In this document: positions 11,788 to 36,693 of the stretch, piece by piece
Numbering within the stretch: the first letter of the stretch is position 1
Layout: every line of letters begins with the position of its first letter
Source of the DNA: Candidatus Paraprevotella stercoravium
GTDB taxonomy: Bacteria > Bacteroidota > Bacteroidia > Bacteroidales > Bacteroidaceae
NCBI GenBank assembly: GCA_944320795.1
Contig: CALUIU010000012.1
Location: forward strand, 1-64,000
Direction of reading: 5' to 3'
DNA: 64,000 nucleotides
The notes under the pieces: model-generated
The model's input: only the letters and a program-made list of their open reading frames with translations
What the model was told of the DNA's origin: nothing
Databases searched by the model: none
Position numbers and translations under genes: made by a program

Positions 11788-11833
11788 GAGCCGACAGCGG
11801 GACTCGAACCCGCGACCCTTTCATTACGAATGA
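11788..11833 (-). pseudogene. 3' part of tRNA-Thr(CGT): prophage attachment core (left junction)
   Basis: Read on the minus strand, this contains an anticodon loop TTCGTAA (CGT, threonine), a variable loop, a perfect T arm (GCGGG TTCGAGT CCCGC) and the 3' acceptor strand TGTCGGC. The 5' half is missing: pairing in the anticodon stem fails from about 11834 outward, and the sequence then becomes AT-rich phage DNA. This is the usual footprint of a phage that recombines at the 3' end of a tRNA gene. The orientation predicts that the intact, reconstituted tRNA-Thr lies at the far end of the prophage, beyond the window. Confidence 0.85.
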
Positions 11834-11858
11834 GAATTGATATATTAACTATCCGTCA

Positions 11859-11931
11859 GAGTATCAATGTTTTACAATAAATATTTTATTTCTAAGGATA
11901 CTCCAATGCACATTTTATGCCTAGAGTATCC
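11859..11931. repeat. GAGTATC repeats beside the attachment core
   Basis: Three copies of GAGTATC lie within 72 bp of the left junction: 11859-11865 (+), 11897-11903 (inverted) and 11924-11930 (+). The last two form an 8-bp inverted repeat (GGATACTC, GAGTATCC) that could also terminate the leftward lipoprotein gene. They may be arm-type integrase sites. Confidence 0.4.
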
Positions 11932-20035: not shown

Positions 20036-20494
20036 ATGAAAACGAAAGAAATAACTAAAGTCGTTTACGTCGCTAATGATGGGAAAGAGTTTCTTACAGA
20101 AGAAGAATGCAAGAAGCATGAAGCGTTTGTGAAAGAAATTTTGCGTAATATTTCCTATTTCTGTATCCGTTGCTGTCCTGATTTAAATGAAACAGGATAT
20201 TATACTCATAGAATATATGCAGCAGTCCTTTCTAAAAATGGATTATTCAGTAAAGAAATCGCATTTCAATGGGCTTTAAAAAAGTTTGGTACTTACTTAG
20301 GGGAAAGCGTAATGGGATATGGTTTCCAACCTCATTTTGATGTAAGCGAAATCTCTAAAGAAGAATATGAAAGATGTCCTGCTACTGTATGGGGAGGCAC
20401 TCCATTAAAAAGTGAAAAAATATTTCTAAGTCCCAAACAGGTAGAAGATTTTCCTAAGAATATTGATTATATGAAAGAATGGGGATTTAAATAA
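20036..20494 (+). CDS. Hypothetical phage protein
   Basis: A 152-residue protein; the start at 20036 follows the tRNA-like element, whereas an in-frame ATG at 19976 would lie inside it. Two cysteines in FCIRCC and a HKxxF-type N-terminus are visible but no family is recognised. The TAA stop overlaps the ATG of the next gene by 1 nt. Confidence 0.6.
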   Translation: MKTKEITKVVYVANDGKEFLTEEECKKHEAFVKEILRNISYFCIRCCPDLNETGYYTHRIYAAVLSKNGLFSKEIAFQWALKKFGTYLGESVMGYGFQPHFDVSEISKEEYERCPATVWGGTPLKSEKIFLSPKQVEDFPKNIDYMKEWGFK

Positions 20495-21825
20495 TGCCGT
20501 ACTACATCAAGAAACCTAAAAAGAAGAAAGAAAGCCCCTTGCCATTATTTGACAAGGCAGGTATCAAAATCAGAAAGAAGCCGGATCTAAAGGCGAAGCT
20601 CGACAAAGAGTTTTCCCTTTTCATCCGGCTTCGTGATTGTATGCCAAATGGCTTTTTCCGCTGTATTTCATGTGGGCAGATAAAGCCATTTGAACAGGCC
20701 GATTGTGGGCACTATTTCAGCAGAACACACCTTGCTACAAGATACGATGAAAAGAATTGTAACGCTGAATGCCGCCACTGCTTAACTCCTGATGCGCTAA
20801 TTCTAATGAAGGATTTTAGTTGGAAAAGACTTGGAGAAGTTCAAGTAGGCGAAGAAATCTTTGCTTTTGATGAAGAAATTATTTATAAGACATCACGAAG
20901 GTATAGAGTTGGAAAAGTCACATATATTGAACGTGATATTCAAGACGTATATGAGGTTGAATTAGAGAATGGTGATAAAATAAAGACAACAGCTAATCAT
21001 AAATGGCTTGCAAGAGCAAGGCAAGGTACTTCATATACATGGATTGAAACACAGGAAATGTGGATAAATGGAATAAATCTTCATGGTAAACATAAAACTG
21101 GACCTCATACGGATAGAACTACGACTATTGTTTGTAAACCTCTTCAAGTTATACAACAAGACAAATCTTATGAAAGTGGATGGATCGCTGGAATGATTGA
21201 TGCAGATGGACATATTTGTCAGCAGAATATTGTTAATCAAGATGGTACAAAACGCTATGGCTTTCGCATTGGTATAGCTCAATGTGAAAAGTACATGGAT
21301 ATTTGTTCTGAAATAAAGCACTTACTTGAAAAGTTCACAGGTAATAATAAAACTTGCCGACAGACAATGGAAAACTTAAATAGGCAGGGTACATTCAAAA
21401 AAACATATCAATCATGGCAATTTCTCATAACAGGTACAAATATTGAGAAACTTCAGTTTCTAATGCGTGTTCGTCCAAATAAAATAAAAAAAGTGGATGT
21501 GGAGAAATTAGGTAAACTGAAATCGCAATATGATACTAGAGTTAAAAGCATTAAATATGTTGGTAAAGAAGAAATTATTGTCATGGAAACTGATACTCAC
21601 ACATTTATTGCTAATGGCTATGCTATGCATAACTGCAACAGATTCAAAGCGGACCATCTGGAAGGCTACAGGGTAAATCTGATTGTCAAGATCGGGCAAC
21701 CGGCTTTTGATATGCTCAAAGTGAAAGCTGCCAGTACATCAAAAATGAGTGATTTTGAATACGAGCAGCTTATCAAGTACTATAAAGCCATAAACAAGAA
21801 ACTAAGAAAGGAGAAAGGCTTATGA
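20494..21825 (+). CDS. ninG: NinG/Rap-like recombination nuclease interrupted by an intein
   Basis: The 443-residue precursor consists of an N-extein (1-95), an intein (96-380) and a C-extein (381-443). The exteins together resemble lambda NinG (Rap), a Holliday-junction or branched-DNA nuclease: CISCG (57-61), ADCGHYFSRTHLATRYDEKN and ECRH/CNRFKADHLEGY. The intein splits a CxxC zinc knuckle (C93-R-H | C381), so splicing is needed for activity. The gene follows NinB, the SSB-like protein, the RecB-like nuclease and Sak4 in the same operon and overlaps the helicase by 4 nt. Confidence 0.9.
   Translation: MPYYIKKPKKKKESPLPLFDKAGIKIRKKPDLKAKLDKEFSLFIRLRDCMPNGFFRCISCGQIKPFEQADCGHYFSRTHLATRYDEKNCNAECRHCLTPDALILMKDFSWKRLGEVQVGEEIFAFDEEIIYKTSRRYRVGKVTYIERDIQDVYEVELENGDKIKTTANHKWLARARQGTSYTWIETQEMWINGINLHGKHKTGPHTDRTTTIVCKPLQVIQQDKSYESGWIAGMIDADGHICQQNIVNQDGTKRYGFRIGIAQCEKYMDICSEIKHLLEKFTGNNKTCRQTMENLNRQGTFKKTYQSWQFLITGTNIEKLQFLMRVRPNKIKKVDVEKLGKLKSQYDTRVKSIKYVGKEEIIVMETDTHTFIANGYAMHNCNRFKADHLEGYRVNLIVKIGQPAFDMLKVKAASTSKMSDFEYEQLIKYYKAINKKLRKEKGL
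20779..21633 (+). other. Intein with LAGLIDADG homing endonuclease domain
   Basis: 285 residues. Block A begins at C96 (CLTPDALILM), block B is the TANH motif in KTTANHKWLA, a dodecapeptide endonuclease motif is GWIAGMIDADGHI, and block F/G is HTFIANGYAMHN followed by the +1 cysteine of the C-extein. All residues needed for standard class 1 splicing are present (Cys1, TxxH, His-Asn end, Cys+1). Only one LAGLIDADG motif is obvious; the second may be degenerate. The intein is more AT-rich than the flanking exteins, suggesting later acquisition. Confidence 0.92.
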
Positions 21826-33454: not shown

Positions 33455-33474
33455 GGTATCTTTGTATAGATACC
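33455..33474 (+). promoter_or_regulatory. Dedicated promoter of the phage tRNA, inside an inverted repeat
   Basis: TATCTTTG (33457-33464) is a perfect -7 box ending 12 nt before the mature tRNA 5' end, which fits a short 5' leader. It is framed by GGTATC (33455-33460) and GATACC (33469-33474), a 6-8-6 inverted repeat that could be an operator. A weak TTTA -33 candidate lies 20 bp upstream. Confidence 0.65.
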
Positions 33475-33476
33475 AT

Positions 33477-33549
33477 CGCGGGTTAGAGCAGTGGTTAGCT
33501 CGTCACTTTGACTTGGTGAAGGCCGGTGGTTCGAATCCATCACCCGCAA
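33477..33549 (+). tRNA. Initiator-like tRNA with anticodon GAC
   Basis: A 73-nt cloverleaf: acceptor CGCGGGT/ACCCGCA with a C1:A72 mismatch, D stem GAGC/GCTC giving A11:U24, anticodon stem TCACT/GGTGA, loop TTGACTT (anticodon GAC, reads GUC and GUU), 5-nt variable loop, and T arm GGTGG TTCGAAT CCATC. C1:A72 and A11:U24 are hallmarks of bacterial initiator tRNA, and the body closely resembles tRNA-fMet from the acceptor through the D arm and into the variable loop. The three consecutive G:C pairs of the initiator anticodon stem are absent, and position 37 is U. CCA is not encoded. It has its own promoter. An elongator tRNA-Val(GAC) is the conventional alternative. Confidence 0.85.
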
Positions 33550-33573
33550 CTAACATTTAAAAATTACACGATT

Positions 33574-33933
33574 ATGGAAATACTTACACTTATCATCAAA
33601 CAGAAGTTCTTTGACGAGATCTTATCAGGCAAGAAAACACAAGAATTCAGAGAAATCAGACCTACTACACAGAAGAAATACTGTCAGCTTGACGCTGAAG
33701 GCTTTTGCGTAGAGAAAGATGGTGTTTTACAACCCAGACGCTACGATGCCATTCAGTTCTTTGTAGGCTACAATAAAGACAGGGCCAGCGCACTGGTAGA
33801 AGTCAAAGACACAAAGATAGAATTGTTTGAAGATGAGAATCACAATTTGATTGAATACACTTATCAAGGTGAAATTTATTTGGCAGCTCAGGTCGTTTAC
33901 GATCTTGGCAAAGTGATCGAAAAACATGTTTAA
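33574..33933 (+). CDS. ASCH-domain protein
   Basis: A 119-residue PUA-like ASCH protein. The N-terminus (LIIKQKFFDEILSGKKTQEF) and EIRP segment are typical. ASCH domains bind RNA and some hydrolyse modified cytidines. It lies 24 nt after the initiator-like tRNA and carries the ACACGATTATG leader. A link to tRNA or translation is suggested only by the domain and neighbours. Confidence 0.75.
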   Translation: MEILTLIIKQKFFDEILSGKKTQEFREIRPTTQKKYCQLDAEGFCVEKDGVLQPRRYDAIQFFVGYNKDRASALVEVKDTKIELFEDENHNLIEYTYQGEIYLAAQVVYDLGKVIEKHV

Positions 33934-33953
33934 CCCTTTAAAATTGTTGTTGA

Positions 33954-34115
33954 GTCAGAACAAACAGAAGTACATTTTCTACAAGTAACTATCGTGGTGG
34001 CCGGACTGGATTAACAGATCCGAACACTGGTAGGACCTCTCATGGTGGTAGATTTATCACTCGTAGACAGCAGTATTATAACATCCGCACAGGACTTGGT
34101 ATGAGTGGAGGATAG
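33954..34115 (+). CDS. Small basic protein A, proposed GTC start
   Basis: An open frame of 53 codons bounded by TGA (33951-33953) directly before GTC (33954) and TAG at 34113. It contains no ATG, GTG or TTG except an ATG four codons from the end. The product is glycine/arginine/tyrosine-rich (NYRGGRTGL, GRTSHGGRFITRRQQYYNIR, ending GLGMSGG). The GAGTCAGAA context around the GTC is shared with two other ORFs nearby. No strong Shine-Dalgarno is seen here. The start codon is inferred. Confidence 0.6.
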   Translation, partial: VRTNRSTFSTSNYRGGRTGLTDPNTGRTSHGGRFITRRQQYYNIRTGLGMSGG

Positions 34116-34116
34116 T

Positions 34117-34791
34117 ATGACACTGCAAGAAAGAACATATAATAGCATTGACCTCGTCAGGCAAAAGACTGACGGGGCTTTGCTGTTTTTGTCCTTGGGT
34201 AAGGATTCTTTAGTTCTATTGGATATGATCTATCCCAGATTCAAGCGAATTGTCTGTGTATTCATGTATTTCGTCAAAGGTTTAGAGCATATCGAAAGAT
34301 GGATCGGTTGGGTAAAAGCCAAATATCCTAAGATAGAGTTCATACAGGTACCCCACTGGAATCTTACTTACATTCTTCGTGGTGGCCTGTATTGTGTACC
34401 TAATCCCAAAGTGAAGCTTTTGAAGTTGGCCGATGTGGTCAAGGCCATGCAGCTCAGATACGGACTGTATTACACTTTCCTGGGTATGAAGAAAGCTGAT
34501 GGCATGAATCGCCGTCTGATGCTGAAAGGATATGAAGTCAATGGGTATGAGAACAAAGGCATGTGCTATCCTCTGGCCGATTGGACACAGAAAGACATTC
34601 TATCTTACATGAAGCAGAATAGCCTTCCGGAGCCTGTGAGGTATTCGCTGAAGGCCAGTTCGGGTGTAGGCTTTAATCTGGATTGTATGCTATGGCTGGA
34701 GAAGAACTACCCGCAGGATTTACAGAGAATTTACAAGGTGTTCCCGATGGCTGGGAGAATTCTTTGGGAGCACAAGAATAAACAAAATTAA
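34117..34791 (+). CDS. PAPS-reductase/DndC-like family protein (IbrA-type)
   Basis: A 224-residue ATP-pyrophosphatase-fold protein with the PP-loop LSLGKDSLVLLDM (about 25-37). In phages such genes often pair with a ParB-like gene, as ibrA and ibrB do, and a role in DNA or host sulphur modification is suspected but unproven. GGAGG at 34107-34111 sets the ATG at 34117; a GTG at 34105 is less likely. The ParB-like partner follows after small ORF B. Confidence 0.78.
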   Translation: MTLQERTYNSIDLVRQKTDGALLFLSLGKDSLVLLDMIYPRFKRIVCVFMYFVKGLEHIERWIGWVKAKYPKIEFIQVPHWNLTYILRGGLYCVPNPKVKLLKLADVVKAMQLRYGLYYTFLGMKKADGMNRRLMLKGYEVNGYENKGMCYPLADWTQKDILSYMKQNSLPEPVRYSLKASSGVGFNLDCMLWLEKNYPQDLQRIYKVFPMAGRILWEHKNKQN

Positions 34792-34806
34792 TAGGAGGAA
34801 TGCAGA

Positions 34807-35034
34807 GTCAGAAGAAGAATTTCGGATAGAACTATGAGTTATTTAGGAAATCCCTATACAGCTCAAAATCTAATGTCTGGTTATGGATATAACCGAGCGC
34901 AAGTTGCTATTCTCAACCGTTCTCAAGCTCTCAGAAGTAGAGCAACAACAGAAAGCCAATTTAGAAGAATTGGAAGAGCAGCTGAAAATATGCATCGAGC
35001 AGCAAGTGGAGGACTTGGTTTAAGTAATGGTTAA
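34807..35034 (+). CDS. Small basic protein B, proposed GTC start
   Basis: A 75-codon frame. The in-frame TAG at 34792 is followed by a GGAGG (34794-34798) placed 8 nt before GTC (34807). The first in-frame ATG is 9 codons later (34834) and has no ribosome site. From GTC the protein starts RRRISDRT, is rich in Arg, Tyr, Gly and Ser, and ends GGLGLSNG, like protein A. It overlaps the ParB-like gene by 8 nt. The conventional start at 34834 cannot be excluded. Confidence 0.65.
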   Translation, partial: VRRRISDRTMSYLGNPYTAQNLMSGYGYNRAQVAILNRSQALRSRATTESQFRRIGRAAENMHRAASGGLGLSNG

Positions 35035-35776
35035 TATGGAACTAAGCAAATACATAAAGAGTGAATCGGTGGAACTTAACCGCTCCGCCATTCACTTTGC
35101 AGATTATAACCCCAGGAAACTTTCTGAGGAATCCAGAAAGACGTTGAAGCGGGGTATCAAGAAGTTCGGACTTGTCGGTGGGATTGTAGTCAACAAGCGG
35201 ACCGGACTTACTATCGTGTCCGGCCACCAGCGTCTGAGCGTGATGGACGAGCTTCAGAAGTATCCTGAGAACGACTACCGCATCCGTGTCGATGTCATAG
35301 ACGTGGACGAGAAGCAGGAGAAAGAATTAAACATCCTGATGAACAACCCTAACGCGCAAGGCTCTTGGGATTACGATGCTTTGGCTCGTTTAGTTCCTGA
35401 TATAGATTATCAGGATGCAGGTTTAACTGCAGCAGATTTGAATATGATTGGATGTGACTTCCTTTTGCAGACAGAAGAAGAAAATTCTATTGCTGATGCA
35501 TTGGAGGATATGATGGCACCAGTAACAGAACAGAAAGAAGCCGAGAAAGCAGCTAAACAGATGGAAAGAGCCGAAAAGGTGGCCCACATGAAAGAAGTCA
35601 AGCAACAAGTGAAGGATGCAGCCCAGAAACAGGCTCAGGATATGGATGCTTACTTAATGCTTTCCTTCGATACTTTTGAATCTAAAGCCGCTTTCTGTGA
35701 AAGATTCGGTTACGACCCCTACTCCAAGTTTATCAAGGGTGAGGTGTTCGATGAACAGATAGAAAGAATTGAATGA
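35027..35776 (+). CDS. ParB/sulfiredoxin-like nuclease-domain protein (IbrB-type)
   Basis: A 249-residue protein. Residues 15-100 form a ParB-N domain (HFADYNPRKLSEE, then IVSGHQRL). The middle has a coiled, alanine/glutamate-rich linker (about 165-205), and the C-terminal domain resembles the IbrB/ParB tail. It pairs with the PAPS-reductase-like gene. The ATG at 35036 is an alternative start, 3 codons in. A role in DNA modification or regulation is possible. Confidence 0.78.
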   Translation: MVNMELSKYIKSESVELNRSAIHFADYNPRKLSEESRKTLKRGIKKFGLVGGIVVNKRTGLTIVSGHQRLSVMDELQKYPENDYRIRVDVIDVDEKQEKELNILMNNPNAQGSWDYDALARLVPDIDYQDAGLTAADLNMIGCDFLLQTEEENSIADALEDMMAPVTEQKEAEKAAKQMERAEKVAHMKEVKQQVKDAAQKQAQDMDAYLMLSFDTFESKAAFCERFGYDPYSKFIKGEVFDEQIERIE

Positions 35777-35804
35777 CAACATGAAATTTTAGGAGGAAAT
35801 CCGA

Positions 35805-36038
35805 GTCAGAAGAAAAACATATAGCCAGTTGTATCAACAGTCAAGACGAATAATGTACAACGCCGGAAGGCAATACGGGCTTGGAACAGACAGACAAAGA
35901 AGTATAAGAGACAGAACGAGGTTTATAATGGAAAGATATGCGGCAAGGATAGACAGCTATTTCTCAAAGAGAGGAATTGATATTTATGGTGATAAGCCTG
36001 TTTCTCGCCGCATTTATATGGGCAACAATAATGGATGA
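35805..36038 (+). CDS. Small basic protein C, proposed GTC start
   Basis: A 77-codon frame. Its leader is almost the same as that of protein B: TAG at 35790-35792 in frame, GGAGG at 35792-35796, then 8 nt to GTC at 35805, followed by AGA AGA. The only other early start codons are a TTG at 35829 and an ATG at 35853, both far from the ribosome site. The product is basic and tyrosine-rich (RRKTYSQLYQQSRRI, ending RRIYMGNNNG). Confidence 0.7.
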   Translation, partial: VRRKTYSQLYQQSRRIMYNAGRQYGLGTDRQRSIRDRTRFIMERYAARIDSYFSKRGIDIYGDKPVSRRIYMGNNNG

Positions 36039-36180: not shown

Positions 36181-36693
36181 ATGGGAAATAGTGAATCTCA
36201 AAAAAGTAAACATACAGGGCGAAAGCCTAAATTTGACTACAAGAGTGAGGAGTTTCTCTCTCAAGTGGAAACGTATGCCAAAAAGGGATTCACGGACAAA
36301 GAAATCGCTTTTGCTTTAGGATTATGTCCCCAAACATTCAGTGAAAAGAAGAGTGAGCACTGCGAATTAAGCGAAGTATTAGCGCGCGGGCGTGCAACTA
36401 TCACAGCGGCAGTGCGTGCAAAGTTCCTTGCTATGGCCTTGGGCGGTATCAAGACTAAGAGCACTGTTGTTAGGAAGTTGAAGGACCAGGACGGCAATTT
36501 AACAGGTGAAGAAGAGCTTCAGGTGAGTGAAAGTGAACTGGCTCCTAACCTGCAAGCAATGTCTGTCTGGTTATATCATCATGATGAAGAATGGAGAAAG
36601 GTTGAACGCCGACAGGATGAGGATGCAGATATCCCCCAAGACATTGATCACGGTGTTTCTATTGATTCATGGATTAAAGACAAACTGAAATGA
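36181..36693 (+). CDS. terS: Terminase small subunit
   Basis: A 170-residue protein with an N-terminal helix-turn-helix (GFTDKEIAFALGLCPQTFSEKK is split around residues 36-57), a central helical part and an acidic tail ending DSWIKDKLK. It overlaps the large subunit by 4 nt. It recognises phage DNA for packaging. Confidence 0.85.
   Translation: MGNSESQKSKHTGRKPKFDYKSEEFLSQVETYAKKGFTDKEIAFALGLCPQTFSEKKSEHCELSEVLARGRATITAAVRAKFLAMALGGIKTKSTVVRKLKDQDGNLTGEEELQVSESELAPNLQAMSVWLYHHDEEWRKVERRQDEDADIPQDIDHGVSIDSWIKDKLK

Follow-up and report, generated by a model that had tools for sequence, protein, structure and literature searches.

A candidate second initiator tRNA and private GUN start codons in a Bacteroidales prophage

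The subject of this report is a tRNA gene and a set of small genes in a prophage of Candidatus Paraprevotella stercoravium (contig CALUIU010000012.1); the window, i.e. the whole stretch of DNA that was analysed, comprises 64,000 nucleotides. The tRNA has the body of an initiator and the anticodon GAC, and three small open reading frames downstream of it (ORF1, ORF2, ORF3) open with the codon GTC. We propose, with a probability of roughly 0.88, that the phage encodes a second initiator tRNA, which reads private GUN start codons of small basic proteins. Judged from the sequences, comparison with relatives supports this proposal by conservation, by covariation of start codon and anticodon, by wobble behaviour, and by an ATG start in one relative for which no tRNA was found.

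The tRNA would combine a body of the tRNAfMet type with the anticodon GAC in place of CAU (AAC or UAC in relatives). It would most likely be charged with valine by the host valyl-tRNA synthetase (ValRS), would then be formylated and placed in the P site, and would there begin the translation of small basic proteins from codons (GUC, or else GUU or GUA) on which the host initiator would work poorly. The likely use would be a gating, the products being translated only after the phage's own tRNA, which heads the same gene cluster, is transcribed.

Covariation of anticodon and start codon

A sequence-only reading of this DNA had raised the question of whether the tRNA and such starts co-occur in homologous phages. 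They do, and the start changes with the anticodon, GAC going with GTC or GTT, AAC with GTT, and TAC with GTA. In Bacteroides phage BS-TP2, the genes follow in the same order, a GAC tRNA is present without annotation, and ORF1 opens TGA-GTC; the deposited annotation begins the ORF1 protein, gp53, at an internal ATG. A scan of the record set viral_contigs with the anticodon arm gave 23 stretches, all with a tRNA and 21 with an ORF starting in GAGTC. The two exceptions are L018, which ends about 0.2 kb past the tRNA, and L030, which has a GTC-start ORF1 that was dropped by a filter and a second ORF with GTT. The search with an ORF1 protein found 44 loci, starting with GTC (29), GTT (11) or ATG (4). 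ARAGORN reported a GAC tRNA in 27 of the 29 GTC loci, and in a 28th (L044) the T loop of the tRNA is odd; an AAC tRNA goes with each of the 11 GTT loci and also with the four ATG loci (L065 to L068), which share one tRNA sequence and one ORF1 sequence. Scanning for initiator-bodied tRNAs whose position 36 is not U yielded 113 stretches and 90 new loci, for which the ARAGORN results were gac (30), aac (22), tac (7), cac (5), cca (2), cag (1), gca (1), incomplete (1) and none (21). GTA starts had been predicted beforehand for the TAC phages and were then found: the ORF1s of L256 and L257 open TGA-GTA, and L218, likewise a TAC phage, has four GTA-start ORFs of the family.

The family comprises 103 distinct GTN proteins. 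With GAC tRNAs, 68 of them start with GTC and 12 with GTT; 14 start with GTT next to AAC, seven with GTA next to TAC, and two with GTC where no tRNA was seen. The counts agree with the reading expected of G34 (with wobble), A34 and U34. Membership of the 103 was decided by a match to a profile (ORF1 and group 2, i.e. ORF2, ORF3 and their relatives) together with a typed pattern covering the first residues that follow the valine; since GTG is a normal start codon, proteins starting with it were not counted. Calls at internal valines were excluded or re-placed before counting (L236, L029, L184, L228, L224 and L178; also L228 VSRVRRK, with GTC three codons on, L233 VRNSYV and L139 VKSARQ), and the group-2 ORFs of L059 and L233, once listed with GTA, have GTC three codons downstream. 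Alignment A1 contained no stretch conserved enough to serve as a query; single proteins were queried instead.

All 97 ORFs that were linked to one of 38 distinct tRNAs are decodable; label shuffling, which ignores kinship, gave a mean of 75.5 and a maximum of 95, and none of 100,000 shuffles reached 97. Counted per phage, both a tRNA and a start call are at hand in 56 of 63 rows (GAC/GTC 43, GAC/GTT 1, GAC/ATG 1, AAC/GTT 7, AAC/ATG 2, TAC/GTA 2); the remaining seven comprise five without a start call and two without a tRNA. A tree of ASCH, the protein encoded next to the tRNA (59 rows, leaving out L175, L206, L238 and L167), requires at least six changes of the anticodon and nine of the start codon. 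Because the arrangement recurs in relatives and start codon and anticodon change jointly, the pattern goes beyond chance.

A start independent of any phage tRNA, as in ordinary non-AUG initiation, is not what was found: the start codon covaries with the phage anticodon. Such joint changes are likewise not predicted by the explanation that the tRNA is an ordinary elongator tRNA-Val, which supplements GUC decoding, and that the host initiator provides a weak start of the GTN ORFs. A supplement is conceivable, as among 45 distinct host tRNA sequences (62 of 63 matches) there is Val(tac) only and no Val(gac). However, GTC makes up 14.7% of the valine codons in 13 phage genes versus 12.9% in seven host genes of the window, a tRNA of the UAC kind would be redundant beside a tRNA-Val(tac) like that of this host, and the marks of an elongator tRNA-Val (paired 1:72, Y11:R24) are replaced in the window tRNA by an unpaired C1:A72 and by A11:U24. 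We consider the elongator explanation very improbable.

In the record set genome_contigs, a first tRNA pattern gave zero matches, although it fits the window; a shorter one matched 17 stretches, 15 of which are tRNAs. All nine genome loci with an ORF1 match are concordant (AAC/GTT 4, GAC/GTC 4, GAC/GTT 1), and four of these (L263, L268, L274, L276) hold ORF1 proteins not counted earlier. Five of the other six tRNA loci end at most 0.5 kb from the tRNA; the sixth, L266 with 2.7 kb, has no ORF1 match. Named genomes with the locus include Bacteroides neonati MS4 and Hoylesella buccalis ATCC 35310. Of 393 sampled genomes of the order, the window's own was the only one to match a narrow pattern. 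Among 50,697 phage records, an ORF1 protein matched BS-TP2 and MT838676 alone, and the ATG-start ORF1 of L255 matched none.

The GTN codons as probable start sites

The tRNA and the genes following it are listed here.

33457..33464, + strand: promoter-like TAnnTTTG (TATCTTTG), upstream of the tRNA and inside the inverted repeat GGTATC...GATACC; read from the sequence
33477..33550, + strand: initiator-bodied tRNA, anticodon GAC; ARAGORN, Rfam RF00005 with 54.4 bits, family of relatives
33574..33933, + strand: ASCH-like protein (phrog_625), ATG start, first gene after the tRNA; ASCH match with E 0.012, below the cut-off
33954..34115, + strand: ORF1, GTC start directly after TGA, 53 amino acids, basic; relatives with GTC, GTT, GTA and ATG starts
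34117..34791, + strand: PAPS-reductase-like protein, ATG start
34807..35034, + strand: ORF2, GTC start, 75 amino acids, basic, group 2
35027..35776, + strand: ParB-like protein (phrog_9353), ATG start
35805..36038, + strand: ORF3, GTC start, 77 amino acids, basic, group 2; a relative in L014, 97% identical, has a GTT start
36181..36693, + strand: terminase small subunit (phrog_309), ATG start

The sequence-only reading had described an initiator-type tRNA with anticodon GAC and three small basic ORFs with GTC in a common context. ARAGORN calls the tRNA, and the GTC codons at 33954, 34807 and 35805 all stand in the context GAGTCAGAA (GA-GTC). In ORF1, TGA lies immediately 5' of GTC; in ORF2 and ORF3, four codons lie between an in-frame TAG and GTC. 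Between the upstream stop and GTC, no in-frame ATG, GTG or TTG is present in any of the three ORFs. In the whole family, a stop is found directly 5' of GTN in 59 of the 103 ORFs, and in 42 more the frame is open without a canonical upstream start; therefore, the GTN codons do not simply lie inside longer genes that start further upstream. The GGAGG placed 8 nt 5' of GTC by the same reading is present in ORF2 and ORF3 and is not a general feature, ORF1 being without it. Ribosomes of Bacteroidia are reported not to recognise Shine-Dalgarno sequences (accessible part of PMC9976891), which weakens the GGAGG point.

The ORFs could also be reached by frameshifting from an upstream ATG, with no initiation at GTN. 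An open, out-of-frame ATG does exist upstream in 34 of the 103 ORFs, for example at 34800 before ORF2. It is absent in the other 69, which argues against frameshifting, and covariation with the anticodon is not expected from it; we regard this explanation as hardly credible.

The base at position -1 is A in all 103 ORFs and that at -2 is G in 100; these bases were not used in choosing the 103, while some seed proteins behind the profiles were picked in a GA context. As A at -1 is invariant and the tRNAs have U37, a four-base A-GUN signal is possible, in which the conserved A(-1) would probably pair with U37. For initiation in E. coli, a codon-anticodon contact of extended length has been proposed. 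For the more specific proposal of a separate initiation channel, in which an initiator-derived valine tRNA would read A-GUN via U37, would serve a private gene set and would have been re-tuned several times by joint changes of anticodon and start codon, we see the chances as evenly balanced. A longer pairing between mRNA and tRNA (G-2 with U38, C-4 with position 40), considered by eye, was set aside: C-4 occurs also where position 40 is C.

Pairing alone would likewise make loop and mRNA covary. This would hold for a tRNA-like RNA that regulates the ORFs by base pairing of its anticodon loop with GAGUN in the mRNA and does not act as an initiator. The paired triplet, however, stands directly after the in-frame stop in the 59 ORFs mentioned above and opens a conserved frame; moreover, an intact cloverleaf with initiator marks would be left unexplained. 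This makes a regulator a very doubtful candidate.

The proportions of nonsynonymous (pN) and synonymous (pS) differences among 25 ORF1 sequences, calculated from all pairs, which are non-independent, were 0.48 and 0.55 in the eight codons upstream of ORF1, 0.27 and 0.45 in codons 1-9, and 0.07 and 0.70 in codons 10-22; the N-terminal stretch is therefore just moderately constrained. Homologues with ATG have a few additional residues (MATRIAVGT vs VRIAVGT; MPTAIQRR vs VQRR). GTC, GTT and GTA encode valine in the standard code, and the neighbouring genes gave family matches when read under table 11.

The tRNA, the exceptions and the question of purpose

Read from the sequence, the body of the window tRNA is of the initiator type: C1:A72, G2:C71, C3:G70, G4:C69, A11:U24 and A73. 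Its anticodon loop is TTGACTT, with U-U at positions 37-38, and the loop TTNACTT is found in nearly all phage tRNAs of the family. The anticodon is not the CAU of initiators, being GAC in the window and GAC, AAC or TAC in relatives; a valine anticodon together with A73 would allow ValRS to charge the tRNA. Of 46 distinct GAC/AAC/TAC tRNAs with U37-U38, 45 have no pair at 1:72, and the remaining one has T-A. A11:U24 was fixed by some tRNA search patterns and partly by one finder; it was not selected for in the anticodon-arm and ORF1-protein searches.

The host's own initiator (loop CTCATAA, stem CCAGG/CCTGG) resembles the phage tRNA in the type of its acceptor and D arm and in its mismatch at 1:72. 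In the comparison of the window tRNA with the host tRNAs (best 8 of 45), the initiator has the top alignment score (73 vs 67.5 for the next); in raw identity, two tRNA-Pro (0.72) lie slightly above the initiator (0.70). Changes of the anticodon stem among family members are compensated, and the commonest AAC type (stem CCAGT/GCTGG) differs from the host initiator stem solely at 31:39. The motif TAnnTTTG, which we take to be the Bacteroides promoter consensus, lies at most 60 nt upstream of 29 of 45 distinct family tRNAs. The inverted repeat GGTATC-GATACC (33456-33475) stops just 5' of the window tRNA and may be a site of processing or control; at the equivalent position, the repeat of BS-TP2 is another one (GTACC-GGTAC). 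In L253, L254 and L044, both the T loop (GGGCRGAG) and the D loop of the tRNA are unusual, and the tRNA, which lies about 0.45-0.5 kb upstream of ORF1, was missed by ARAGORN; these three keep the anticodon arm and GTC starts despite the odd loops.

Several observations weigh against the proposal. The anticodon stem of the window tRNA is TCACT/GGTGA, in which the three consecutive G:C pairs of initiators (29-31:39-41) are absent, and 31:39 is U-G here and in most relatives. These pairs are described as important for P-site binding in the accessible part of PMC2268962, and their absence from the window tRNA is the main objection to its membership in the initiator class. Only two independent pairs lie on well-supported branches of the ASCH tree, which leaves a sign test without power. 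A canonical in-frame start exists further upstream in two of the 103 ORFs. Five of the nine concordant genome loci repeat ORF1 proteins already counted, and the genome scan is therefore just a partly independent test. Three distinct phages (L065/L141, L178, L224) keep the tRNA and start ORF1 with ATG, which weakens the earlier claim that the products would be made only when the tRNA is present; in L178 and L224, no GTN ORF of the family was found. The fragments L058 and L258 have a GTC-start ORF1 and no detected tRNA.

The host initiator stem, which has A29:U41 and two G:C pairs, is also short of three. L065 retains a GTT-start ORF of 149 amino acids with a weak LPD3 match (E 3.8e-5, below the cut-off), and the contig L058 is cut 0.5 kb upstream of ORF1. 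An ATG start in the absence of the tRNA, about which the sequence-only reading had asked, was seen in L255, in whose record no tRNA was detected and whose ORF1 relative opens with ATG. A loose motif search of the L255 and L258 records gave four one-mismatch matches, none of them tRNA-like; Rfam could miss a T loop of the L253 type.

Initiator-bodied tRNAs with the anticodons AAC, GAC, TAC, CAC, CCA, CAG or GCA were also seen in the viral contigs L125, L175, L176, L206, L243, L187, L208, L234, L242, L245, L170, L190, L214 and L230. No cognate-start ORF of the family was recognised for the initiator-bodied tRNAs of the probably unrelated contigs L125, L166, L175, L176, L206, L209 and L243, nor for those with CAC, CCA, CAG or GCA; L240, also a probably unrelated contig with such a tRNA, has one. 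Further non-Met initiators may nevertheless exist.

As to the purpose of the tRNA, the main rival to gating is nuclease escape: the same initiator tRNA, its anticodon arm altered, would evade host nucleases that cut tRNAfMet, and proteins would be made despite blocked initiation. According to the accessible part of PMC10264068, phage tRNAs have been proposed to evade tRNA-targeting defences by anticodon-loop mutations, and its reference list includes VapC toxins that cut initiator tRNA; the phage tRNA differs from the host initiator at 31:39 and at positions 37-38. Counter-defence would explain the changed arm, but not why GTN starts are confined to a few small proteins, and no defence gene was tied to the system, no search for one having been made. 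We judge this purpose unlikely, with a chance that is still worth considering.

Gene products, known systems and meaning

Neither Pfam nor PHROG gave a match for ORF1, ORF2 or ORF3 of the window. ORF3 is predicted to form a helical hairpin (mean pLDDT, predicted local distance difference test, of 89), for which a Foldseek search against the PDB found no match at E <= 0.001; the model of a GTT-start protein of 228 amino acids was too poor for use (pLDDT 47). In 24 aligned group-2 proteins, identity to ORF3 of the window is 81-97% in the closest set and 25-44% in the rest, and V1, R2, K4, Y71 and G73 are invariant. Proteins of group 2 share V-R-x-K close to the N terminus and, in most cases, YMGxxNG at the other end, with a highly variable middle; the conserved ends may mark a packaging or binding tag. 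A family of 222-228 amino acids (L074:6433-7116, L225:26-691, L238:814-1479) likewise opens with a cognate GTT or GTC after GA, and its L074 member matches phrog_2563.

The window is a Bacteroidales contig. Host-type genes, such as those for an ammonium transporter and a cytochrome c peroxidase, occupy its first 11 kb or so and are followed by the prophage with genes for a CI-like repressor, Sak4, NinG, terminase, portal, major head and tape-measure proteins. A tRNA-Thr(cgt) at 11790-11859, between the host-type genes and the repressor region, may be the integration site. The NinG-like gene at 20494-21825 contains an apparent intein, with Intein_splicing and Hint matches (below the cut-off) between two NinG parts.

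In bacteria, the use of Met-tRNA for initiation is regarded as nearly universal, and to our knowledge initiators that read other codons are known only as engineered ones. Known starts at GUG, UUG and AUU need no dedicated tRNA; these starts by fMet-tRNA are also not AUG, whereas here the codon follows the phage anticodon. With canonical tRNAfMet, the window tRNA shares the 1:72 mismatch, G2:C71/C3:G70/G4:C69, A11:U24 and A73; it differs by an anticodon that is not CAU and by the lack of the three consecutive G:C pairs. Phage-encoded initiator tRNA-Met (CAT), represented by 28 viral-contig rows, which are partly from a biased sample (53 matches) and were used as a comparison only, have the same initiator body; these read AUG, and their position 37 varies.

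The E. coli tRNAfMet engineered to anticodon GAC (the G34C36 mutant) has both the initiator body and the anticodon in common with the window tRNA; according to the accessible part of PMC2268962, GUC serves as its start codon, ValRS charges it, and it becomes formylated. In contrast to this man-made mutant, the phage change is natural, occurs in G34, A34 and U34 versions with U37-U38 and with matching natural start codons, and in the window is found without the three G:C pairs. Nuclease-evading phage tRNAs share the altered anticodon loop; in the accessible part of PMC10264068, "start codon" is absent and "initiator" occurs in the reference list only. Among the literature matches listed (titles and starts of abstracts, covering few subscription journals and no bioRxiv preprints), none dealt with a naturally occurring initiator tRNA whose anticodon is not that for Met, or with a link between the start codons of a phage and a tRNA of its own; the system is likely absent from the published literature.

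It seems that the system could already be tested: the deposit of BS-TP2 names a host strain, Bacteroides salyersiae BG8, and named bacterial genomes carry the locus. If the proposal is true, it would supply a reason why gene finders miss or truncate such genes, as in the case of BS-TP2 gp53, and would represent a natural orthogonal initiation system. A non-Met initiator tRNA and its private start codon would then be a natural, evolving pair, and thus a new way of gating a set of genes.

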